From contig JAKBEU010000002.1 in NCBI GenBank assembly GCA_021833625.1, forward strand, positions 186,001 to 250,000: a DNA stretch of 64,000 nt, given 5' to 3'. The DNA is from a bacterium (GTDB lineage: Bacteria; Patescibacteriota; Microgenomatia; UBA1406; GWC2-37-13). The position numbers and the translations under genes were made by a program. Under the pieces are notes generated by a model. The model saw nothing but the letters and a program-made list of their open reading frames with translations, was not told where the DNA came from and searched no databases. Each line of letters begins with the position of its first letter. The stretch's first letter is position 1. Shown here in pieces: positions 32,178 to 43,868 of this stretch.

Positions 32178-33266
32178 TCATTTTGTTTTTAATTTTGTAA
32201 AAAACAGTTCAAGGATTTTGTAATAGGTATCAAGGCTTTTAATCAAGACCCACTCACAGTCTCCGTGAAGTCCCTCCCCGACGGGTCCGCACGTAACGCC
32301 ATTCACATGAATGCCATTATAATGTCTGATATCAGACCCTCCATGTTTTGAGATAATTTTCGGAGGGGAGTGGGTGATGACTTTTACCGACTGTTTCAGC
32401 AATTTTACATACTCATTGTTTTCATCAGTAAGTTGAGGAGGCTCGAATGACTGGTACTCAAGCTCCATACTGGGAAACATTTTTGATAACGTTTTCTTTA
32501 TAGAGTTCCAATCTTCAGGAATGAAGCGTACATCAAGTTTCATTTCGCAATTGTCGGGAACTTTATTAAACGTTACATTTGAAGTTTCTATTTTTGCGAT
32601 ATTAATGCTTGTCCGCCACTGTTCTTTTGTAAGAACGGGGTATTTTTTTTCAATCATGTCAAGCGCCTTTTTCATTTTGAGAATTGCGCTTTCTCCTCTC
32701 CATTGATATGCCCCGTGAGCGGCGACACCCGTCGCTTTAACATTGACCCAAATAATTCCCTTTGCTTTGTTGTTGATGCCGTAGTCCGTCGGTTCTGCGG
32801 CAATTACAAAATCTGCCCGTACCCCCTGTTTTATTTGATGTTGCGTGCCGTTGTACCCTCCAATTTCCTCATCGGTAACGAGTTGTAGTCCAATCGGATA
32901 GGGAAGGAGGCGGGACAATTTTTTAAACAAAACAATTTCAACGGCAGCTCCACCTTTCATATCAATTGCACCTCTCCCATAAAGTTTTCCGTCTTTTTCA
33001 AACGGAATAAACTGTTTGGCGTTTCCTGCAACCACATCCAGGTGTCCGTTAAGTATTACCTTGAATTTCTTTGGTCTGCTTTTGCCGGAGTATACAAGAA
33101 TGCTCGGTTTTTTGTTTGAAGAAAACTCTTCAATAGTAAATCCGTTTAATTCCTTTTTTACGGCATTTATAATTTCCTGCAACTTTTTTTCGTTTGAACC
33201 GACTGACTCTATTGAAATCAATTTTTTTGTCAGATCCAAAATTTCATTTTTCATATGCTCATTCAT
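32178..33266 (-). CDS. M20 family zinc metallopeptidase / deacylase
   Basis: 362 residues of the ArgE/DapE/CPG2 fold. Zinc ligands and catalytic residues are all visible: GHLDVV (His, Asp) near 75, GRGAIDMKGG near 98, VTDEEIGG (catalytic Glu) near 130, AAEPTD near 157 and the closing GLHGDCEWV His near 340. It hydrolyses an amide bond of a small peptide or acylated amino acid; the substrate is unknown. Its ATG directly follows the stop of the ATPase gene, making it the last gene of the four-gene operon starting at 37389. Confidence 0.87.
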   Translation of the reverse strand: MNEHMKNEILDLTKKLISIESVGSNEKKLQEIINAVKKELNGFTIEEFSSNKKPSILVYSGKSRPKKFKVILNGHLDVVAGNAKQFIPFEKDGKLYGRGAIDMKGGAAVEIVLFKKLSRLLPYPIGLQLVTDEEIGGYNGTQHQIKQGVRADFVIAAEPTDYGINNKAKGIIWVNVKATGVAAHGAYQWRGESAILKMKKALDMIEKKYPVLTKEQWRTSINIAKIETSNVTFNKVPDNCEMKLDVRFIPEDWNSIKKTLSKMFPSMELEYQSFEPPQLTDENNEYVKLLKQSVKVITHSPPKIISKHGGSDIRHYNGIHVNGVTCGPVGEGLHGDCEWVLIKSLDTYYKILELFFTKLKTK

Positions 33267-34241
33267 TTAATTAATAATTTTTCTTCTTTTTTTGTCCCTG
33301 CGAATTTGTGTCAGATTTATCCTATTATTTTCGCATTCCTCAACGAGCGACACAAGGGAATTAAGCGGGCCATCATCTGTGTCTGAAGAGGTGATGACCC
33401 CCTCCATAACGAAAAGGAATTGTTCTTTTTTATCCCTTGCCAGCTCCTTGAGAACGGGGTATGTCCTGAGGGCGGAAAGCACCAAGTCATTGGGTATTTG
33501 CACTTTTTGCATGTATTCGGCAAGCCTCCTATCCGTTTCCATCTGGCCCATGTAGTCCACCACAATACGTGGTACCTCCTGATCGATAAGGAATTTGTTT
33601 ATAGACTTTCTTGACTGGAGAAAAAGCGGTATCTGGTACCTGGGGAATGTCTGCAGGAAGGTAGTATACTGATCTCTTAATTCTTTATCCAAGAAAACGG
33701 AGGCCCATTCCTCATCGTGACTGGTTATGGCAATTGGTACAGTTGCACTATTGAGCGCATCGATAATTATCGGCACTCTTTTCTGCTGGGCTTCCCGTCC
33801 GATATCCCGTCCGACCGATCGTGACTTTAAAAATAAATAATCAAAACTGTCAAAAAAAATAGGGATATTTCTTTCGTTTGCCCGCTTAATCTGTAATGCC
33901 AGTTCCTCCCCCTCTACTTCCTGGTGATGGCCGTTTATAAAACAATAGCCTATTCCCGCAATGTCACAAATTTCCGACAACCCGAAGAGAATGGTGCCTT
34001 TTCCGCTTTGGGGAGGTCCCTCAATAAGCAGTTTGCCTTGTGAAAAAAAAGTATCGGCCGCCGTAACTGTTTCCTCCGGTCTCCACACCTCCTTTTCCTC
34101 GCGCAACTGTTGTGCCGTTACTCCTCTGACAAGGGGCAAAAGGGAGTCCCTCGGAGGAAGCGCAGCACCTGCAAAAAATTTTATTCCATTAAAACTTTCT
34201 TCCCGATGCGGTCTTCCTTCTTTTCTTATAACTTCGCTCAT
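33267..34241 (-). CDS. P-loop ATPase of unknown function in the DUF1177-M20 operon
   Basis: 324 residues. Walker A GPPQSGKGT near 75, a Walker-B-like IPIFFDSFDYLFL near 125, and a sensor-like AITSHDEEW near 170. An Arg-rich stretch and helical C-terminal region (about 190-310) follow, with a basic end (RRDKKRRK). It looks like an AAA+/STAND-type single domain; no named family is recognised. It starts 1 bp after the DUF1177 gene and its stop touches the M20 start, so strict co-expression is expected. Confidence 0.7.
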   Translation of the reverse strand: MSEVIRKEGRPHREESFNGIKFFAGAALPPRDSLLPLVRGVTAQQLREEKEVWRPEETVTAADTFFSQGKLLIEGPPQSGKGTILFGLSEICDIAGIGYCFINGHHQEVEGEELALQIKRANERNIPIFFDSFDYLFLKSRSVGRDIGREAQQKRVPIIIDALNSATVPIAITSHDEEWASVFLDKELRDQYTTFLQTFPRYQIPLFLQSRKSINKFLIDQEVPRIVVDYMGQMETDRRLAEYMQKVQIPNDLVLSALRTYPVLKELARDKKEQFLFVMEGVITSSDTDDGPLNSLVSLVEECENNRINLTQIRRDKKRRKIIN

Positions 34242-34242
34242 A

Positions 34243-35166
34243 TTATTTTTTTTGCAAATGTTTCATATCTCCGTATTTTTTTTCAATACGGACAAATTCA
34301 TCATTGTCGACAAGGGTTACCTTTCCTTTTCCAAACCGTTGAGCAACCTCAATAAGGAATCGTCCCACCTCATCAATTTGAGAGATATTTGAAACCCCCG
34401 TGGCACATCCGGCAACCGGAGAGACAGAAGTTATCGCAACCCCAACCACAGGCGACTGTGTCGCCGTACAGGGTTGCATGATGCTGTTGAAATGATAAAA
34501 ACCATTTCCGTAGGGCGTAATATCCTGGGTCGTGATAGGGAACGTAACGGGAGGTTTTCCAGTTACCTGTTCCATGAGGGATAACAGATCATCGCTCATT
34601 TTCAGGATATATCCGCTTTTGACGGTGGGAGAGAGGGCGAATCCGTTATGGTTGATTATCTTATTCCCCCTTGACGTATCAACTGACAATATCGCATCCA
34701 TTTTCGGGTCAACTTCGTATGCGTTCATTGTCGCAAGTTCAACGGGGGATCCCATGAACGGGACTGGTTCGTGAGGAGTTGTGGGAGCGTTTGTGCACAC
34801 ATGAGTTGCAATTATCACATCTCCCTCAAGCTCATCTCCGTTACGTTTCATCACGGCAAGGCGAAACGCAGTTGAAAGAGCCGTCAAAGCACCGTCTCCG
34901 TCGGAGACAAATCCGACCGTCTCAGGGCGGGCACCTACTCCACCAAGACGTCCGATTATCCCAAGAGTCGGCGCCGTTCCCTTTTTTGATTTTCCGTTTT
35001 TCCCTGGAATGAGAATTTTGACAAATTCGGTTGAGCCTTTTTTTTCGGTAACGACTTTGAGCGTTACTTTTTGTTTATTTTTTTTGAAAAGAGCAACAAG
35101 TTCACTCCCGGGTTTCCCCGGTTTGTCAAGAAGTTTGTAAATGGACAGTATTTCTGAAATCAACAT
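34243..35166 (-). CDS. DUF1177 family protein
   Basis: 307 residues, very well conserved against the DUF1177 pattern I recall: TLGIIGRLGGVGARPETVGFVSDGDGAL near 85-110, DVIIATHVCTNAPTTPHEPVPFMGSPVE, DAILSVDTSRGNKIINHNGFA, and FPITTQDITPYGNG. In Firmicutes this family, as recalled, lies near peptide uptake and peptidase genes. That fits the M20 peptidase in this operon. The biochemical function is unknown. His and Asp residues in THVC and VDTSRGN look like candidate catalytic or metal positions. Confidence 0.8.
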   Translation of the reverse strand: MLISEILSIYKLLDKPGKPGSELVALFKKNKQKVTLKVVTEKKGSTEFVKILIPGKNGKSKKGTAPTLGIIGRLGGVGARPETVGFVSDGDGALTALSTAFRLAVMKRNGDELEGDVIIATHVCTNAPTTPHEPVPFMGSPVELATMNAYEVDPKMDAILSVDTSRGNKIINHNGFALSPTVKSGYILKMSDDLLSLMEQVTGKPPVTFPITTQDITPYGNGFYHFNSIMQPCTATQSPVVGVAITSVSPVAGCATGVSNISQIDEVGRFLIEVAQRFGKGKVTLVDNDEFVRIEKKYGDMKHLQKK

Positions 35167-35178
35167 AGGGATATTTAA

Positions 35179-37389
35179 TTAATTGGTTAATAACTGGGAA
35201 TTTCTCATTTCTTCCGGATACTCTGTCTGACCATAGAGATAGCGTATATAACTCTCCAGTTTTGGGTACACTTTTCTCATCAGTTCCCGGGCGCTTCTGT
35301 TTGAATCGTCTTTGGACATTTGCTTGGTGCTTCGTGCTTCTTGTACGCTCACAAGTTCTCTAAGCAGCGTTGCAAAATCAGGGTCCCATAGAAACTGCAT
35401 AGCATGATGGACAAACGGATTGTCAGAAAGAGGGAAGTATGCCTGCATATTTAGGCTTTCGAGCTTTTTTTTCAGTTCTCCCATTCGACTTTCATCTGAC
35501 AAGTAATGGGGAAGCGCTGCTTGAACTTTTACAAATTCGCCCTGTGCCACCTCAAGAGCTTTCTGTTTTTCGCTTAGTTTATTTCCTAATTCTTTTTCCA
35601 TTTTTTCTGCCCCCCGGACCTGTCCGCCCATATATTCGACAACAGATCCGCTTTGCACCGGTACGCTTCCTGCCAAAAGGGAGTCAAGATACGCAACAAC
35701 CTCAGGAAGTCTTTGTACATCTGCACGCGTCATGTCATCAGCACTGCCTTCTTCAACTTTTCTTTGTGCGTTTTGAAGTGATTTTTCAGCGGAGGTACGC
35801 ATTTTTTTTACCATCTCGAGTTCTGTTGGCTTTACATGTGTCACTTTGCCTTCTGTCAATGTGCGACTAAGCGTAAGATATCTTTGATTTTCTGCAACAG
35901 ACTGTTCCTGTTGGACAAATTGCTGGTGTGCCTTATCCACTCCCTGTTGGGCTTTTTTCAGGGGAGCAAGCGTGGCTTGCAGCTTTGTCAGTTCGCCTAT
36001 TGTGTCCGCTTTTTCTTTGCTGTTATCAGCAAGATACGATCTCAAAAACTGCAGGTGCTCGGTCACGTTGTTTCGGTGGAGTCGTGCGGGATTGCTGAAT
36101 TGTTGATCGACCGATTCTAAGAAGGTTCTTGTCTCCTCAGGTGTGCCAAGCTTTCCGGAAAAATTGAGTCTCGTCTCATGTTGCACTCCGTTTCTGAATG
36201 TGGGAAGATCGGCAAATCCAACAGCTAATGCTTGCGGATTTTGGGTTGCAAATCTCAGGTAAATATCCCTCATCATAATAAGCCCACGTGCGAACGCCGG
36301 ATCGTTTCCCATTTTTTCTAGTTCCTCACTCGATGGCTCTCTTAGTCCCATAATGACATCCTTCGGAAGATCCATTGAGCCCCACCGGAGATGGTCTATC
36401 TGTTTTTCGCGGACATGGTAGTCTGACTGAAGAGCTCTTTCCATTGCTGCTCTCACCGGTCCGTTATGACCGTCGCTGTCAAGCTGTCTTTGCAGTGCCT
36501 GTTGTACCAATTGCAATTCATTTGGCCCCATATAGGTATAAATAACTTCAGCAATACGGAAGGAGGGATCATAGGGGAGACCCATTTGTGAAAACCACTC
36601 AGATAACGCTTGAGGTAACCCCAGTTCGTCAAAGTTAACCGACAACACCGTTGAGTCAGGATTAATGAGTTTTGATCTTCGTTTAACTATTTCATTTATT
36701 CGCTCGTATGCTGCCTTCGTTTCTGTTTGCGCTTCATCATGGGGAACTCCAAACTCATTTTCAAGCCGCGATGCCCACATGTCCGACTCGATTAAATGAA
36801 CCATTTCACTTTGTCCTCCCAAGAGTGCCCCTGAGGCATGAGTTATGGAGGGCGCTAAATTAACGAGCTTTCGCGCGGTATCCGCAACAACTTCCGGCGT
36901 AACCAATCCGTTTTGCATTGCAACGCGAAGTTCGGTCATTGTCCGCACTCCCCATGTTTCGATGACACAGGATCCGCCGGTATGCATATTATTTGTTTCT
37001 CGGACGGTGAGCTCTCCCGGCACGGAACGAACGCGGACATAGTCTGATGTTCCTAGGTTTGAGACTGCAGTTTCAAATTCCGTTGGAGTCAGGTTTTCAG
37101 GGCCCCTGCTTGTCGGAGAAAACTGTGTATATCCGCTCATCCAATTCGGGTTATTGGCAGGGTCAAACCGTCCGTCGTACCTGTTTGGCCTATGAAAATC
37201 GTCTCCATATTCTCCTGAATCGCTTGTTGGCGGCCATATTTTTCCCAGTACCCCCCTATGGAAATTCAGATATCTTTCAAATCGGGTCCCTCCCTCCATA
37301 ACTCCTTCCAGAGGATCCATTACCTCAGCTCTTGGAATGGGGGTTCTCAAGACTTCATTGGTCCTTTTCGCTTCGATGACTGTACTCAT
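35179..37389 (-). CDS. 736-residue soluble protein with long coiled coil, unknown function
   Basis: No family recognised. Residues 1-440 look globular, with Gly/Asn/Pro-rich parts at the start (about 30-110) and a TGGSCVIETWGVR segment near 135. A coiled-coil-rich region spans about 440-650 (KLQATLAPLKKAQQGVDKAH and NKLSEKQKALEVAQGEFVK). A helical end follows. No membrane helix or signal peptide is visible. It is Gln- and Glu-rich compared with its neighbours. It is the first gene of a tight operon (12 bp to DUF1177) behind a structured leader, so its cellular partners may be the ATPase and peptidase. Confidence 0.7.
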   Translation of the reverse strand: MSTVIEAKRTNEVLRTPIPRAEVMDPLEGVMEGGTRFERYLNFHRGVLGKIWPPTSDSGEYGDDFHRPNRYDGRFDPANNPNWMSGYTQFSPTSRGPENLTPTEFETAVSNLGTSDYVRVRSVPGELTVRETNNMHTGGSCVIETWGVRTMTELRVAMQNGLVTPEVVADTARKLVNLAPSITHASGALLGGQSEMVHLIESDMWASRLENEFGVPHDEAQTETKAAYERINEIVKRRSKLINPDSTVLSVNFDELGLPQALSEWFSQMGLPYDPSFRIAEVIYTYMGPNELQLVQQALQRQLDSDGHNGPVRAAMERALQSDYHVREKQIDHLRWGSMDLPKDVIMGLREPSSEELEKMGNDPAFARGLIMMRDIYLRFATQNPQALAVGFADLPTFRNGVQHETRLNFSGKLGTPEETRTFLESVDQQFSNPARLHRNNVTEHLQFLRSYLADNSKEKADTIGELTKLQATLAPLKKAQQGVDKAHQQFVQQEQSVAENQRYLTLSRTLTEGKVTHVKPTELEMVKKMRTSAEKSLQNAQRKVEEGSADDMTRADVQRLPEVVAYLDSLLAGSVPVQSGSVVEYMGGQVRGAEKMEKELGNKLSEKQKALEVAQGEFVKVQAALPHYLSDESRMGELKKKLESLNMQAYFPLSDNPFVHHAMQFLWDPDFATLLRELVSVQEARSTKQMSKDDSNRSARELMRKVYPKLESYIRYLYGQTEYPEEMRNSQLLTN

Positions 37390-37460: not shown

Positions 37461-37474
37461 CCGCCTAGAGGCGG
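37461..37474. repeat. Short GC hairpin
   Basis: CCGCC, TAGA, GGCGG: a 5-bp stem with a 4-base loop in A/T-rich DNA. It has no T-run on either side. It is one of three similar CCGCC hairpins in the 363-bp gap. Confidence 0.4.
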
Positions 37475-37533
37475 AGAATAAGACAAAAGACAAAAATAAT
37501 AACGCCGAATATATTCGGATTTGGTGTTTTCAT
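37465..37533 (-). CDS. Possible 22-residue hydrophobic peptide
   Basis: ATG at 37533 reads MKTPNPNIFGVIIFVFCLILRL and stops at TAG (37465-37467). It is nearly all membrane-type sequence after residue 7. A TATAAT at 37567-37562 (minus) lies 28 nt upstream. Its stop falls in the hairpin at 37461-37474. Such short hydrophobic peptides resemble type I toxins, but length alone makes chance likely. Confidence 0.2.
   Translation of the reverse strand: MKTPNPNIFGVIIFVFCLILRL
37505..37518. repeat. 14-bp perfect palindrome, operator-like
   Basis: CCGAATATATTCGG is fully self-complementary and lies mid-gap upstream of the 37389 operon. Its length and symmetry fit a dimeric repressor site. No cognate regulator is evident in the window. 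Confidence 0.35.
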
Positions 37534-37600
37534 TAGTTACAGTAAAAAATAAACGACTCCGATTATAAATAGAAAAATAAAAAATTCTCCCATAATACTG

Positions 37601-37723
37601 AAAAACCCGCCTGTCTGGGCGGGTGCTTTTTAAAAGGTTTTTCCTTTTTTATCCATTAAGCACCTCGCCTGGTAAGGCAAAGTTGTTTAACGATAATAAA
37701 GGAAAAACGACTGTTCATATTAC
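37601..37723 (-). ncRNA. Candidate structured small RNA or 5' leader (about 123 nt)
   Basis: It starts about 7 nt after a strong promoter and ends at an intrinsic terminator. GUUUUUCCUUU (37708-37698) pairs perfectly with AAAGGAAAAAC (37647-37637). Inside, UUAUC/GAUAA, GUUAAAC/GCUUAAU (one A-C mismatch) and ACUUUGCCU/AGGCGAGGU continue the stem to a UACC loop. Several pairs are G-U on the minus strand and would be A-C on the plus strand, which supports minus-strand transcription. No Rfam family is recognised. It could be an independent RNA, or a leader with attenuator for the operon at 37389. There is no other gene in 37390-37752. Confidence 0.55.
37606..37623 (-). terminator. Intrinsic terminator of the candidate RNA
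   Basis: CCCGCC (37606-37611) pairs with GGCGGG (37618-37623) around TGTCTG. The minus strand continues with TTTTT (37605-37601). The plus strand has TGCTTTTT after the stem, so it could work weakly in both directions. Confidence 0.75.
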
Positions 37724-37729
37724 CTGTTC

Positions 37730-37756
37730 ATTATATCACGATTTTTATAAAGTCAA
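37730..37756 (-). promoter_or_regulatory. Strong promoter of the candidate RNA
   Basis: Minus strand: TTGACT (37756-37751), 15 bp, then TATAAT (37735-37730) with TG one base upstream (extended -10). The -35 box overlaps the serS stop codon. It is the best two-box promoter match I found in the window. Confidence 0.65.
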
Positions 37757-39004: not shown

Positions 39005-39622
39005 TTATTGTAACAAATCGCTTGCAATAAGGGGAGCCAGCTCGCGTACCGCAAGAAGACGATGGTTAACTAAGGCATGTTCTTCGGATGAAAGTTCATC
39101 ATAAAATTTGTTGAACCTGTCGACTATAAAAAGGGCGCGGTAGGGAAAGCCTGGACGGGCCAAGCCGCTTGAATGGTGGGCAACGTGTCCGTCAACGGAC
39201 TTTGTCACCTGTATATGCATGTTGTGAAGCGGATTAAAAAAGTGGAGACAAAGGGTAAGGTGACAGGTGCGCTTTTCATCAGGAAAGCCATGAAGTTTTT
39301 TAAGCGTATAGTTTGTGAGTTCGACGTCAGTTGCATCTCTCCCGATCCACCGTTTTGAATGGACTCCGGGTTCGCCATTTAAAGCATCAATCGTAATTCC
39401 TCCATCATCTGCAACGGTCGGAAGTCCTGAGATTTTAGAAAAATAGAGCGCTTTTAATTTTGCGTTCTCAGAGAACGTTTCCCCCGTTTCCTCCGGTTCC
39501 TGGTTAATATTCAGATCGTCAAGAAGAATGAGCGAAATGCCGGACTTCAAAAGGGGCGCAAAGCCTCTTCTCAATTCCTCCTTTTTTGCCGGATTGTGAG
39601 TGGCAATGAGAAGCTGTTTCAT
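39005..39622 (-). CDS. rdgB: Non-canonical purine NTP pyrophosphatase (RdgB/HAM1)
   Basis: Hydrolyses dITP/XTP to the monophosphate to keep damaged purines out of DNA and RNA. The 205-residue protein has LLIATHNPAKKEELRRGF at the start, EETGETFSENAKLKALYFS near 42, VADDGGITIDALNGEPGVHS near 70-90 and KRWIGRDATD. The C-terminal half is more divergent than usual: the FGYDP region is replaced by GLARPGFPYRALFI. It overlaps lysS by 4 bp, and its last codons hold the serS -10 box. Confidence 0.83.
   Translation of the reverse strand: MKQLLIATHNPAKKEELRRGFAPLLKSGISLILLDDLNINQEPEETGETFSENAKLKALYFSKISGLPTVADDGGITIDALNGEPGVHSKRWIGRDATDVELTNYTLKKLHGFPDEKRTCHLTLCLHFFNPLHNMHIQVTKSVDGHVAHHSSGLARPGFPYRALFIVDRFNKFYDELSSEEHALVNHRLLAVRELAPLIASDLLQ
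39007..39012 (-). promoter_or_regulatory. Leaderless-type extended -10 element for serS
   Basis: Minus strand TGTTACAAT ends exactly 6 nt before the serS ATG (39000). It is built into the last codons of rdgB. The 19-mer TTGTTACAATAATCCTATG closely matches the one ahead of the M20 peptidase at 42841. Confidence 0.6.
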
Positions 39623-41682
39623 AGTCCAAGGTCGCCCGCAATAGTTTGCATTGCGTTAAGCGCCAGTGTAACGAAATCGGCAAGGGGAAGACCTAGCTTG
39701 TCTTCACACTGTTGGATCATTGCCCTGTTTGTCCGTGCGGCAAACCCCTTATTTTTGAATTTTTTCAAAACTGCCTCCGGCGTTACGTCTGCTATTTTCT
39801 TATTCGGCAGAATAAGTGTTGTTGCGGTAATAAGTCCGGTCAGACTGTCACATGAACTTAAGGACCAGTCCATATTGGTCATCGGCTCTTTCTGTTTGTT
39901 GTAGTCAAAGTTATGGGCAAGAATAGCATTTAGCAACTCTTCGTTTGTCTCTCCTTCTTTTTTCAACATTTCAACCGTTTTTACTGCGTGTTTTTCGGGA
40001 GTCAGTTTTGTTTCTTCCCAGTCCGCATCATGCAGTAATCCGGTAACTCCCCAGAGATTTTCATCCCCATTAAAATGTCGGGCAAGTGCTTTCATGACCG
40101 CTTCAACGGCAAGGGAATGTTTAAAGACATTCGCTGCAAGGCGCGGCTGAACAAAAGCAATGGCTTTTTCACGGGTGAAAAAAAGTGGTGCGGATTTTTT
40201 TGCAGCCTGTTTTTCGTTTGAAGGAGTGTGGACTGACATCCCGCTTTTTTTAAGAGTCGGGAACAACATTGTTTCGCGGATCGCCCATGTGTTGGTAAAG
40301 AACATGACAAGGCGTTCTATTCCGATGCCAATTCCTCCGGTCGGCGGCATACCAAATTCCATTGCGGTCAAAAAATCTTCATCAATCTGTTGCGCCTCTT
40401 CCTTATCTTTTCGGACTGCCTTTTGATCGTTACTGAAACGTGCACGCTGGATTACCGGATCCGTAAGTTCGCTCCATCCGTCACAGATTTCTTTTCCGGC
40501 AATATATCCTTCAAACCGTTCGACCCATCCTTTTTTGGTGGGATGGCCCTTTGAAAGAGGGGATACGTCTTCCGGATAATCAATTATCCATGTGGGTTCG
40601 ATAAGAAGTTTTGGAATGGAATGTTCAAAGATGACATAAATAAGCTGTCCTTTTGTCTCTCCTCCTATTAGTTCTATTGCATGTGTTTTGCAATACGCCA
40701 TAAGATCTTCTTTTGAAGAGGAGTCGACGTCAAGTGAAAGTTTTTCTTTCATTATTTCAGACATGGGGATTCGCGGCCATTTGCCGGACAGGTTAATTTC
40801 CTTTTCTTCTATTTTCATTTTCAAAGAACCGTTCAGTTTTTCCGCAAGGAATTTGAAAAGCCCCTCCGTCACATCCATGACACGGTGATAATTTGCGTAT
40901 GCTTCGTACCATTCAACCATGGTAAATTCAGGACTGTGCGATCTGTCAAACCCTTCATTCCTGAAGTCGTGTCCTATTTCATATACTTTCTCGTATCCTC
41001 CCGCAATGAGGCGCTTCAAATACAGTTCAAACGCGATTCTCAGATACATATCCTGGTCGAGAGCATTGTAGTGTGTTACAAACGGTTTTGCATTTGCTCC
41101 TCCATATAGGGGATGAAAAACGGGAGTTTCGACTTCCCAAAACCCTAAGTTGTCCAAATATTCTCGCAAAAACCTCAGCAATTTTGTGCGAACATTAAAT
41201 CGCTCTCTCACTTCCGGGTTGAGAAGTAGATCAAGGTAGCGCTGTCGAAATCTCTGTTCCGTATCTTTCAGCCCATACCATTCATGGGGAAGCGGTTGAA
41301 GCGATTTGGAAAGAAGTGTTAAACTTGAAGGGATAATGGACAGCTCTCCTGCGGTTGTTTTTGTAACCGTTCCTTCAACGCCGAGATAATCACCGATATC
41401 AAGAAGCGATAATTGTTTATACGTTTCCTCTCCCAGTACGTCTTTTTTAAAGAAAAGTTGGATTTTCCCGGACTCATCTTTTAAATCGGCAAATGCGATA
41501 TTTCCATGTGTCCTGAATGAGAACAATTTTCCCGCAGTTTTTACCTGTTTTCCTTCCATGTCTCTTACTTCCCCAATCATCTGTTTTTTTTCATATGATG
41601 AAGGGTAGGGATTCCATCCGATTTCACGTATTTTTTCCAGTTTTTTCAGCCGGTCTTCTTTCAGATTTTGTGCGGTAGACAT
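39619..41682 (-). CDS. lysS: Lysyl-tRNA synthetase (class II) fused to a C-terminal HD hydrolase domain
   Basis: 687 residues. The LysRS part (1 to about 500) has the OB anticodon domain, motif 2 EIGHDFRNEGFDRSHSPEFTM near 235-255 and motif 3 MPPTGGIGIGIERLVMFFTN near 450. From about 505 an HD phosphohydrolase domain follows: HS at 522-523, GLLHDADWEE with HD at 551-552, ILAHN near 590 and a final Asp in SSCDSLTG near 612. The extra domain is about 180 residues and is not part of normal LysRS (about 490-500 residues). Its substrate is unknown; alarmone or nucleotide hydrolysis is speculative. Confidence 0.93.
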   Translation of the reverse strand: MSTAQNLKEDRLKKLEKIREIGWNPYPSSYEKKQMIGEVRDMEGKQVKTAGKLFSFRTHGNIAFADLKDESGKIQLFFKKDVLGEETYKQLSLLDIGDYLGVEGTVTKTTAGELSIIPSSLTLLSKSLQPLPHEWYGLKDTEQRFRQRYLDLLLNPEVRERFNVRTKLLRFLREYLDNLGFWEVETPVFHPLYGGANAKPFVTHYNALDQDMYLRIAFELYLKRLIAGGYEKVYEIGHDFRNEGFDRSHSPEFTMVEWYEAYANYHRVMDVTEGLFKFLAEKLNGSLKMKIEEKEINLSGKWPRIPMSEIMKEKLSLDVDSSSKEDLMAYCKTHAIELIGGETKGQLIYVIFEHSIPKLLIEPTWIIDYPEDVSPLSKGHPTKKGWVERFEGYIAGKEICDGWSELTDPVIQRARFSNDQKAVRKDKEEAQQIDEDFLTAMEFGMPPTGGIGIGIERLVMFFTNTWAIRETMLFPTLKKSGMSVHTPSNEKQAAKKSAPLFFTREKAIAFVQPRLAANVFKHSLAVEAVMKALARHFNGDENLWGVTGLLHDADWEETKLTPEKHAVKTVEMLKKEGETNEELLNAILAHNFDYNKQKEPMTNMDWSLSSCDSLTGLITATTLILPNKKIADVTPEAVLKKFKNKGFAARTNRAMIQQCEDKLGLPLADFVTLALNAMQTIAGDLGL

Positions 41683-41690
41683 ATTTCTCA

Positions 41691-41696
41691 ATTATA
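41691..41696 (-). promoter_or_regulatory. -10 element for lysS
   Basis: Minus strand TATAAT ends 8 nt before the ATG at 41682. It lies in the 28-bp gap after the upstream M20 gene. Confidence 0.5.
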
Positions 41697-41710: not shown

Positions 41711-42841
41711 TTATGGAGCCAAATCGACAAGACGAATATACGTTGTCAGTATTTCGCATATTTTTGAAACGGACTGTAAGGATACCCACTCGTTGCATGA
41801 ATGCGCGTTTCCGCCCACCGGGCCAATACCAAGTGTAGATATTTTGTGAGAGCCGAATATATTCTCATCCGCAACGGAAGACCTGAAGTAGGGAACTGCC
41901 TTTTTTCCCGTTGCTTCTCGTATGCTTTTCTTCATCAAAGAAAGATGAGTGTCGCGGGGAGAAACAACATAGGGTTCAAGAAACGGACTTTCTCTTTGCT
42001 TCAGATTGATATCGACTGAAATCTTATTCCCGTATTTTCTTTCGATTCTTGCCGCTACTCCTTTCAGTTTTGCCAATAACTTTACATGCGTAAGGGGAGG
42101 AAGGACAGCAGAGTCCAGTTCACACATAATCTGCTCGGGAAGAGACATACCGGTTGTTTTTGATTCTATTTTTCGTACGAATACAAATTGTTTTTTATCT
42201 CCGTTTTTTTTATACATTTTTTTTAGGGACTGTATAAATTCGCTTAGGACATAGTTAATGTCACATGAGGGTTCGTAAAAAGCATAGTGCTTTGACTGTC
42301 CCCTTATTGATACGGTATATACAGCTCGTCCTATTCTCCCGACTACTATTCCCTGGTTACCGTTTGCAAATGCCGGTTCCGTAGATATGACATTTACGAC
42401 GTCCTCCATGAAAGAAGAATTGATAAGTTTAAATCCTCCTTTTGAGATATTTTCCTCATCAATGCAAAATGCCATTTTAAGCTTTATGTTTTTCGGAGAC
42501 GAATTGAGAAACGAAATGATACTGGCAACCATTCCTGCTTTCATATCCCAAGCTCCGAGCCCATATGCACGGTCTCCCTTAATATTAAGAGTGTAGGGAT
42601 CCGTCATCCATCCATTTGCAATTCCCACTGTGTCTAAATGTGTATACAGCAGAATACTTTTCTTACTCGAACCTTTTTCAACAAGTATGTTATATCTGTC
42701 CTTTTCAACGAGCTGTTTTGTCACCCTGCAATTTTTCTTCAGAAAAAAAGAATATATATATTCGGATATTTCTTTTTCGTGAGGATATCCGGAAGGGATG
42801 GCAACGAGTTTTATAAGCAGTTGTTGTATATCAGTGTTCAT
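41711..42841 (-). CDS. Second M20 family metallopeptidase / deacylase
   Basis: 376 residues. THLDTV (ligands His, Asp) near 75, GLGAWDMKAG near 103, IDEENISKGG (catalytic Glu pair) near 135, STEPAFANGN near 160 and GGNAHSCNEWV near 345. The sequence is only distantly like the M20 gene at 32178, so it is a separate subfamily rather than a duplicate. The start at 42841 is chosen because a -10 box ends 6 nt upstream. ATG 42847 is the alternative. It overlaps the GNAT gene by 11 bp. Confidence 0.87.
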   Translation of the reverse strand: MNTDIQQLLIKLVAIPSGYPHEKEISEYIYSFFLKKNCRVTKQLVEKDRYNILVEKGSSKKSILLYTHLDTVGIANGWMTDPYTLNIKGDRAYGLGAWDMKAGMVASIISFLNSSPKNIKLKMAFCIDEENISKGGFKLINSSFMEDVVNVISTEPAFANGNQGIVVGRIGRAVYTVSIRGQSKHYAFYEPSCDINYVLSEFIQSLKKMYKKNGDKKQFVFVRKIESKTTGMSLPEQIMCELDSAVLPPLTHVKLLAKLKGVAARIERKYGNKISVDINLKQRESPFLEPYVVSPRDTHLSLMKKSIREATGKKAVPYFRSSVADENIFGSHKISTLGIGPVGGNAHSCNEWVSLQSVSKICEILTTYIRLVDLAP

Positions 42842-43868
42842 GGGCATATTGTAACAATTTATCACGCGTCATATAGGTCGGCAACAGATCATTTTTTTCG
42901 CTCAAGGGTCGGTCATCATTCACTCCTCCGGATATGCGGACGTGCTGTTCAAGAAATCGGGGAGGAAATCCGAACTGTGCCAAAGTTTCTATGCTAGTCG
43001 TTCGACCGAGCGTACGCGCAGCCCGCAGCACCCCTGGTGCCTGTGCATTTGACTCTCCGTATAAAAGATCGATATCGGTTTGCGCAAGGACTTTCATCAA
43101 CTCGGATGCAATTTTTGTATAAAGTCCTTTGCCGCGATACTCTTCGCGTGTTGCAGCTTCCGTTATCTCATACATGACAAACGGTTGAGGTGCGCCCCCT
43201 CTTTCTATTGCAAACTCAGCGCGTTCCGCCATGCCCGCACTTACCAACTGATCGCCGACAAATGTCCCCAGAAGAATATTGGTGGGATTTTGAAGAATAT
43301 TTATGACCTCGTCTCTTGACCAACCAAAGGCCTTATACAACTGCGCATATTGATCAATGATGTCCTCGTCAACCCGATCTCTTTCGGTTATTTCCCTGAA
43401 CCCGTAAGGAGAATAATCATGTTCCTTGTTGGACGGAGGATTGCCCATTATTTCCCGAACTGCCTGCAGCTCCTTTTCAAACAGTTCAGGCGGCGTATGT
43501 CTCTCCTGTGCATTTTTTCCCAAATATAAAATGGAACAATCATTAAACATTTTTCCGTCTCCCGAAAGTCTGATGATGCCTTCAACTAGAGGCGTTATCC
43601 GTTCGCGCTCATCAGGCGTTAGCCCTGAAAGCACGGCGTTCTCGACAAAATAACGTGCACTTATTCGGGTGGTATCAGCGCTAAGCGGCATCTGGCTGAA
43701 TTCACTTGATAATTGAAGCAAGTCTCCGGGAAGCGTAATCACGGCAGGATAGATACCTTTTTTGCGCTTCTCGGAAGCGGCAACGGGAGGGTAGGTGACT
43801 TCTCCAACACTGCTTGTTTGTATTGCGGGAATATCATATCCGTTCCCCTGCATCTCCATTTGTGCCAT
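42831..43868 (-). CDS. GNAT family N-acetyltransferase-like protein
   Basis: 345 residues. The C-terminal half has a GNAT core: LLGTFVGDQLVSAGMAERAEF as strands, then EITEAATREEYRGKGLYTKIASEL with the acetyl-CoA loop (R-G-K-G-L) near 255-265, and a DLLYGESNAQAP segment. The first about 150 residues are not recognised. It probably acetylates an amine of a small molecule or protein. It overlaps an M20 deacylase gene, so the pair might add and remove an acyl group, but that is context only. Confidence 0.75.
   Translation of the reverse strand: MAQMEMQGNGYDIPAIQTSSVGEVTYPPVAASEKRKKGIYPAVITLPGDLLQLSSEFSQMPLSADTTRISARYFVENAVLSGLTPDERERITPLVEGIIRLSGDGKMFNDCSILYLGKNAQERHTPPELFEKELQAVREIMGNPPSNKEHDYSPYGFREITERDRVDEDIIDQYAQLYKAFGWSRDEVINILQNPTNILLGTFVGDQLVSAGMAERAEFAIERGGAPQPFVMYEITEAATREEYRGKGLYTKIASELMKVLAQTDIDLLYGESNAQAPGVLRAARTLGRTTSIETLAQFGFPPRFLEQHVRISGGVNDDRPLSEKNDLLPTYMTRDKLLQYAHEH
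42848..42853 (-). promoter_or_regulatory. Leaderless-type extended -10 element for the M20 peptidase
   Basis: Minus strand TGTTACAAT ends exactly 6 nt before the ATG at 42841, within the last codons of the GNAT gene. The 19-mer TTGTTACAATATGCCCATG closely matches that of serS. Confidence 0.6.

Follow-up and report, generated by a model that had tools for sequence, protein, structure and literature searches.

A stretch of 64,000 nucleotides (hereafter the window; C1:186001-250000 of a genome of 1.10 Mb in 3 contigs), from a very small bacterium that depends on a host and belongs to the Roizmanbacteria family within the Candidate Phyla Radiation (CPR), carries a tight operon of four genes on its minus strand. 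These encode a protein of 736 amino acids (the 736 protein), a DUF1177 protein, a P-loop ATPase and an M20 metallohydrolase (Table 1). What these proteins do together, and when they are made, is the question raised by this locus. An initial annotation had described the four genes as one co-expressed unit and as a possible peptide-processing or protein quality system. The coordinates of the operon and its gaps of 12, 1 and 0 bp were confirmed. The most informative part of the locus, which that annotation had not noticed, is the leader (37756-37410) that precedes the first gene. We propose that the locus is a peptide-salvage operon which would respond to amino-acid starvation and be switched on by a shortage of hydrophobic amino acids, a reading to which we give about an even chance.

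Table 1. Features of the leader region and of the operon, in positions of the window.
Feature	Position	Strand
Promoter-like TTGACT / TATAAT, 5' of leader ORF 1	37730..37756	-
Leader ORF 1, MNSRFSFIIVKQLCLTRRGA, near-leaderless	37656..37718	-
Leader hairpin 1:2 (P1), containing the purine-rich antiterminator segment GGCGAGGTGC	37637..37708	-
Intrinsic terminator 1 (3:4), ACCCGCC..GGCGGGT and T-run	37605..37624	-
Short hydrophobic ORF, MGEFFIFLFIIGVVYFLL	37537..37593	-
Second attenuator, leader ORF MKTPNPNIFGVIIFVFCLILRL	37465..37533	-
Intrinsic terminator 2, CCCCGCC..GGCGGGG and T-run, 20 nt 5' of the 736 start codon	37410..37430	-
736-aa protein, clade I of an undescribed family; conserved N-terminal part of about 440 aa and heptad-rich C-terminal part	35179..37389	-
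DUF1177 protein, 307 aa	34243..35166	-
Orphan P-loop ATPase, 324 aa	33267..34241	-
M20 ArgE/DapE-like metallohydrolase, 362 aa	32178..33266	-

Attenuator-like leaders

DUF1177 is present in 7 of the 72 genomes of the Roizmanbacteria family that were compared, and the leaders of all seven loci follow one plan: a promoter, a short open reading frame (ORF), a hairpin, a purine-rich segment (GGGCGGGAGGAT-like) and an intrinsic terminator. In every case the short ORF is translatable and lies after the promoter, before the terminator and ahead of the first gene. These ORFs comprise 16-29 codons, the -10 box stands about 10-20 nt 5' of the leader ATG, and the hairpin begins at nucleotide 10-12 of the ORF. 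Promoters resembling that of the window precede the leader ATG by 12-20 nt in the other loci. Two attenuators in tandem, as in the window, were also seen in the relative G018, and in G019 the leader ATG lies 670 nt 5' of the 736 gene. Palindromes of the form CCGCC-N2-10-GGCGG occur at 9 sites in the whole genome, three of which fall in this leader.

Compared with dinucleotide shuffles, the leaders gave z-scores of the minimum free energy of -2.5 to -6.4 at six loci and of -7.0 in G019. Because MAFFT put the 3' arms of the leaders in the wrong place, covariation was assessed by swapping arms between the seven genomes and permuting all 5040 assignments. This resulted in p=0.0012 for hairpin 1:2, p=0.026 for antiterminator 2:3 and p=0.0004 for terminator 3:4, values that are indicative, since the test assumes interchangeable genomes and the 1:2 arms of four of these are similar. 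The arms of the leader change together, and the helices 1:2, 2:3 and 3:4 are mutually exclusive and covarying. When the 5' part of the ORF was masked as ribosome-covered, segment 2 paired with the 5' arm of the terminator in 5 of the 6 loci folded (-11.7 to -22.8 kcal/mol); G018 has its segment 2 within the ORF, where the mask covered it as well. No T-box riboswitch was matched by covariance models in the window between 32000 and 39100 at E<=1, and all Rfam matches of the leader stayed under the gathering cut-offs (anti-hemB with 35.4 against 49.5 bits, Phe_leader with 29.9 against 55 bits).

The leader peptides are rich in hydrophobic residues, with Ile, Leu, Val and Phe amounting to 53% in frame; the two remaining frames give 37-39%, and the proteome 30%. 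The attenuator is well supported at the level of the sequence, and the regulation that it predicts would run as follows. RNA polymerase would start behind the promoter (about 37756-37730) and make the leader with its near-leaderless, Ile/Leu/Val/Phe-rich ORF first. As long as this ORF is read at full speed, or is not translated, purine-rich segment 2 would be covered by hairpin 1:2 or by the ribosome, leaving terminator 3:4 to stop transcription. During a shortage of hydrophobic aminoacyl-tRNAs the ribosome would stall in the ORF and segment 2 (GGCGAGGTGC-type) would pair with segment 3 (GCACCCGCC-type), a pairing that would block the terminator and let the operon be transcribed. The products would then hydrolyse small or unusual peptides through DUF1177 and an exchangeable metallo- or serine peptidase or deacylase (M20 here, PepE elsewhere), the P-loop ATPase and the 736 protein probably presenting or activating the substrate. 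The identity of the sensed tRNAs, the release of the missing amino acids by the peptidases and these roles of the ATPase and the 736 protein are what we infer.

The whole genome was scanned for further leaders. Between a tRNA gene and thrS (L148:3075-3214, plus strand; C2:121875) lies a leader with alternative hairpins and a terminator, whose ORF MITFFSITTTTFS contains five Thr codons, with ACA ACA ACT ACG consecutive; this is a probable threonine attenuator. A probable arginine attenuator precedes argH (L130:1448, minus strand; C1:159848), where the ORF MLHLLFQSSASRRTSRWGNRCRVA with five Arg codons is accompanied by a terminator and an antiterminator-like pairing. Both genes were identified above cut-off (thrS by TIGR00418, argH by TIGR00838). 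The amino acid fits the gene in both leaders, which act as internal positive controls. Since the Thr-run leader of thrS and the Arg-rich leader of argH stand in one genome, this organism appears to make use of leader-peptide attenuation. Most other candidates of the scan lay in or beside coding sequence or had no promoter. A short ORF MNKFQLIKQFSFYYYQLLYGGPV with a terminator (C2:421834, minus strand) is found 5' of a gene for a 306-aa protein of an unrecognised family (L167:4962-5882) and is a possible Tyr/Phe leader.

The operon and its proteins

The genes of the operon stand together in other genomes, an outcome that passes the refuting condition set by the initial annotation and agrees with the co-expressed unit that it had proposed. 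A 736-family gene lies directly 5' of DUF1177 in all seven DUF1177 loci, and the ATPase directly 3' of it in six, which are all the genomes that have the ATPase. This order is kept in G000, G013, G018, G019, G034 and G338, with gaps of 1-25 bp among the three genes; the 736 gene of G034 is spread across contigs and broken by stops. The gap between the ATPase and the next gene measures -4 to 16 bp in four loci, 112 bp in G019 and 223 bp in G018. Either M20 or the dipeptidase PepE (S51) can occupy the fourth place. M20 follows directly in G000 and G019, and in G018 after a 162-aa N-terminal fragment of the enolase superfamily, while PepE, with its Ser motif intact, takes this place in G013, G034 and G338, followed in G338 by an Asp/Glu racemase. 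In the seventh locus, G357, the 736 homologue measures 690 aa, DUF1177 has diverged (47-49%) and M20 lies 1.8 kb further on; no ATPase was detected between DUF1177 and M20. The AT-rich 1.8 kb without ORFs at this point (L034:8494-10302), the position of the ATPase elsewhere, is possibly a decayed gene.

Occurrence is nested among the 83 genomes of the order: the 6 genomes with the ATPase are contained in the 7 with DUF1177, and these in the 8 with a clade I 736 homologue. The co-occurrence of the three genes exceeds chance. The relatives bearing the ATPase are metagenome-assembled genomes labelled Candidatus Roizmanbacteria or Patescibacteria/bacterium. In total, 15 of the 83 genomes carry a member of the 736 family, every one within the Roizmanbacteria family. 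Apart from the own genome, neither DUF1177 nor the 736 family was found in the phylum samples (286 and 379 genomes, respectively), and the viral contigs searched held no relative of the 736 protein. A CPR-wide system is not supported, as the operon was found in one family only.

Two of the proteins belong to unrecognised families, in agreement with the initial annotation. The 736 protein stayed under every curated cut-off of Pfam and NCBIfam, and PHROG or PDB sequence searches with it gave nothing significant. Its earlier description as a coiled-coil protein holds for the C-terminal part, where heptad signals were detected around residues 435-490 and 575-658, but not for the conserved N-terminal 440 residues or so, which show no consistent heptad signal. 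A tree of the family separates clade I (8 genomes, 7 with DUF1177) from clade II (7 genomes, without DUF1177) with a support of 100/100. Across 14 sequences 30 residues are invariant, including G138, G139, C141 and E144, R327, K329, Q330 and H333, and D394. These residues, with their GGxCxxE...RxKQxxH signature, suggest that the protein may be an enzyme rather than a scaffold.

The ATPase likewise matched no named family and scored below the curated cut-offs of Pfam and NCBIfam, and PHROG or PDB sequence searches returned nothing significant. A link to defence systems was rejected, as PADLOC gave a single weak ATPase match (E 0.03). Its Walker A motif reads GPPQSGKGT. In the six sequences available, Walker A (GxPQxGKG) and a Walker-B-like motif (hhhhDSxD) are invariant. 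A polar residue is present in the strand after hhhhDSxD and the order of the motifs resembles that of the additional strand catalytic E (ASCE) class; an arginine finger was not identified in this comparison. In the case of the M20 protein, the assignment rests on PF01546 (94.6 bits) and PF07687 (58.4 bits) and on intact zinc and catalytic motifs (GHLDVV, GAIDMKGG, DEEIGG, AAEPT, GLHGD), the score against TIGR01910, 179 bits, being under the cut-off of 217.6 and too low to assign an exact substrate family.

DUF1177 was identified as PF06675: it scored 434.7 bits where 25 are required, and its residues 39-306 cover positions 3-270 of the 272 in the model. DUF1177 proteins encoded on plasmids, which are 52-56% identical to that of the window, served as the comparison set outside CPR. 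Their hosts are other bacteria and one archaeon (Klebsiella, Sodalis, Paenibacillus, Salinigranum), and neighbourhoods were counted in annotated records, the Niallia record being unannotated at the locus. Most of these genes lie beside OPT/YSL or dipeptide ABC transporters, ArgE/DapE deacylases (M20), AroM, PepE or Asp/Glu racemases, and DUF917 and hydantoinase genes also occur among the neighbours. As these neighbourhoods are mostly peptide-catabolic, DUF1177 would be expected to break down small or unusual peptides. The association with PepE, M20 ArgE/DapE-type deacylases and Asp/Glu racemases is shared between plasmids and CPR loci, whereas the window differs in lacking a transporter or AroM, in the two orphan proteins on either side of DUF1177, and in the attenuator leader ahead.

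Amino-acid shortage and alternative explanations

Several observations weigh against a peptide-salvage operon under the control of hydrophobic amino acids. In the leader peptides no one residue predominates, and the hydrophobic bias may come in part from the pyrimidine-rich RNA, as the values of the other two frames suggest. Taken as a whole, the argH leader folds no better than its shuffles (z -0.65). The order of motifs had suggested that DUF1177 is a peptidase of the M20/M28/M42 type, with the fold and metal ligands of clan MH; profile comparison (hhalign, with controls) against M42, M28 and M20 scored no better than the controls and gave this assignment no support. Unlike DUF1177 operons elsewhere, those of the seven CPR loci contain no transporter recognisable by eye or in family scans. 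Finally, G370 (77% complete) has M20, a shortened 736 homologue, a protein with a peptidyl-tRNA-hydrolase domain and a second M20, and in this genome neither DUF1177 nor the ATPase was detected.

As regards the leader, its hairpins might be ordinary terminators of serS, which lies upstream on the same strand in the window, and its short ORFs the product of chance. This is very improbable, as a promoter is located around the end of serS, ahead of the hairpin, the architecture is the same in all seven loci, and the arm-swap tests point to conserved pairing; moreover, the gene upstream of the leader in G013 is divergent, and the terminator therefore belongs to the leader and not to that gene. Little credence is given to the idea that the hydrophobic ORFs encode functional membrane peptides, or respond to ribosome-targeting antibiotics, instead of reporting amino-acid supply. 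MKNTVLFYIILLFIVLI and MKKRVLFIIILHFLLLF do resemble short membrane peptides such as the Ibs-type type I toxins. However, the ORFs vary in length (16-29 aa) and sequence while the RNA helices covary, and no antisense element was noticed, although no systematic search for one was made. Antibiotic-induced attenuators also use leader ORFs (for example PMC6851288); both versions of this idea have to face the leaders before thrS and argH in this genome, each of which matches the amino acid of its gene.

With respect to the proteins, the peptide theme of the initial annotation stood, given the exchangeable M20 or PepE and the mostly peptide-catabolic surroundings of DUF1177 elsewhere. Its other half, a quality-control complex in which the ATPase and the coiled-coil protein unfold proteins or deliver them to the peptidases, seems improbable to us. 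A P-loop ATPase with Walker A and Walker-B-like motifs indeed adjoins a large protein with a heptad-repeat segment, but this ATPase falls into no named family, neither a protease chamber nor a recognised unfoldase family is present, and the linked hydrolases are exo- or dipeptidases and deacylases, which act on small substrates; in addition, clade II 736 homologues occur without the ATPase or DUF1177. A different possibility, unlikely in our view and still to be taken seriously, accepts the attenuator as real and has the operon recycle a special compound (murein peptides, D- or iso-peptides, cyclic dipeptides or hydantoins) rather than serve general protein synthesis. Racemase or epimerase genes would be its signature, and the Asp/Glu racemase of G338 and the enolase-superfamily fragment of G018 fit this, as do the DUF917, hydantoinase and AroM genes that neighbour DUF1177 on plasmids and the enrichment of the same partner families in cyclodipeptide-oxidase clusters (PMC11055893). 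Yet such genes occur in 2 of the 7 loci only, the one in G018 being a 162-aa fragment, and generally hydrophobic leader peptides do not indicate Ala, Glu or diaminopimelate.

Leader-peptide attenuators are well known from the trp, thr, his, ilv and leu operons of proteobacteria. The proposed peptide-salvage operon shares with them the promoter, the short, amino-acid-biased ORF, hairpin 1:2, antiterminator 2:3 and intrinsic terminator 3:4. It differs in its near-leaderless ORF, nearly all of which is spanned by the hairpin, in a mixed Ile/Leu/Val/Phe bias without a dominant codon, in downstream genes that are catabolic or unrecognised and not biosynthetic, and in its CPR host. Attenuation and operons of DUF1177, PepE and M20 are already known kinds; the literature searched did not mention their combination, the two orphan families or leader-peptide attenuation in CPR. 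Tentatively, and with somewhat less than even confidence, we suggest a new amino-acid-sensing peptide-salvage system of CPR. It would unite two new families (the ATPase and the 736-aa putative enzyme) with DUF1177 and an exchangeable peptidase, under attenuators that are maybe the first recognised in CPR and that would act on thrS and argH as well.

Hosts or neighbours are believed to supply the amino acids and peptides on which CPR bacteria feed. If the peptide-salvage reading is right, these bacteria sense the supply of aminoacyl-tRNA by ribosome stalling, in the leader of a peptide-breakdown operon as well as in those of thrS and argH, and it can be predicted when two unrecognised protein families are made. 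The locus also offers a testable context for DUF1177, a family of bacteria and archaea without known function.

Clade II relatives and neighbouring genes

The clade II homologues of the 736 protein (G014, G032, G363-G367) belong to the same family over their full length, and GGxCxxE, YTYxG and RxKQxxH are invariant in both clades. They differ from clade I in sequence (17-20% identity) and in setting, as they occur without DUF1177 and the ATPase in clusters resembling type IV secretion systems, with PrgI/VirB4-like genes (named by eye) and a penicillin-binding protein. In these clusters (L063, L065-L068, L023, L024) the clade II gene comes after the gene for the penicillin-binding protein and before that of a conserved, unrecognised 190-aa protein.

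Proteins of 750 aa, composed of an N-terminal peptidyl-tRNA-hydrolase domain and an unrecognised remainder, adjoin M20 in G338 and G370 only (L033:2317-4596, L064:10297-12552). In the window itself, a second, divergent M20 ArgE/DapE-like gene (41711-42865, minus strand) is located just 5' of lysS. The lysyl-tRNA synthetase-like ORF of 690 aa (39619-41691, minus strand) seems, as judged by eye, to carry an HD-type hydrolase domain at its C-terminus (HSLAVEAVMKAL...GLLHDADWEET).

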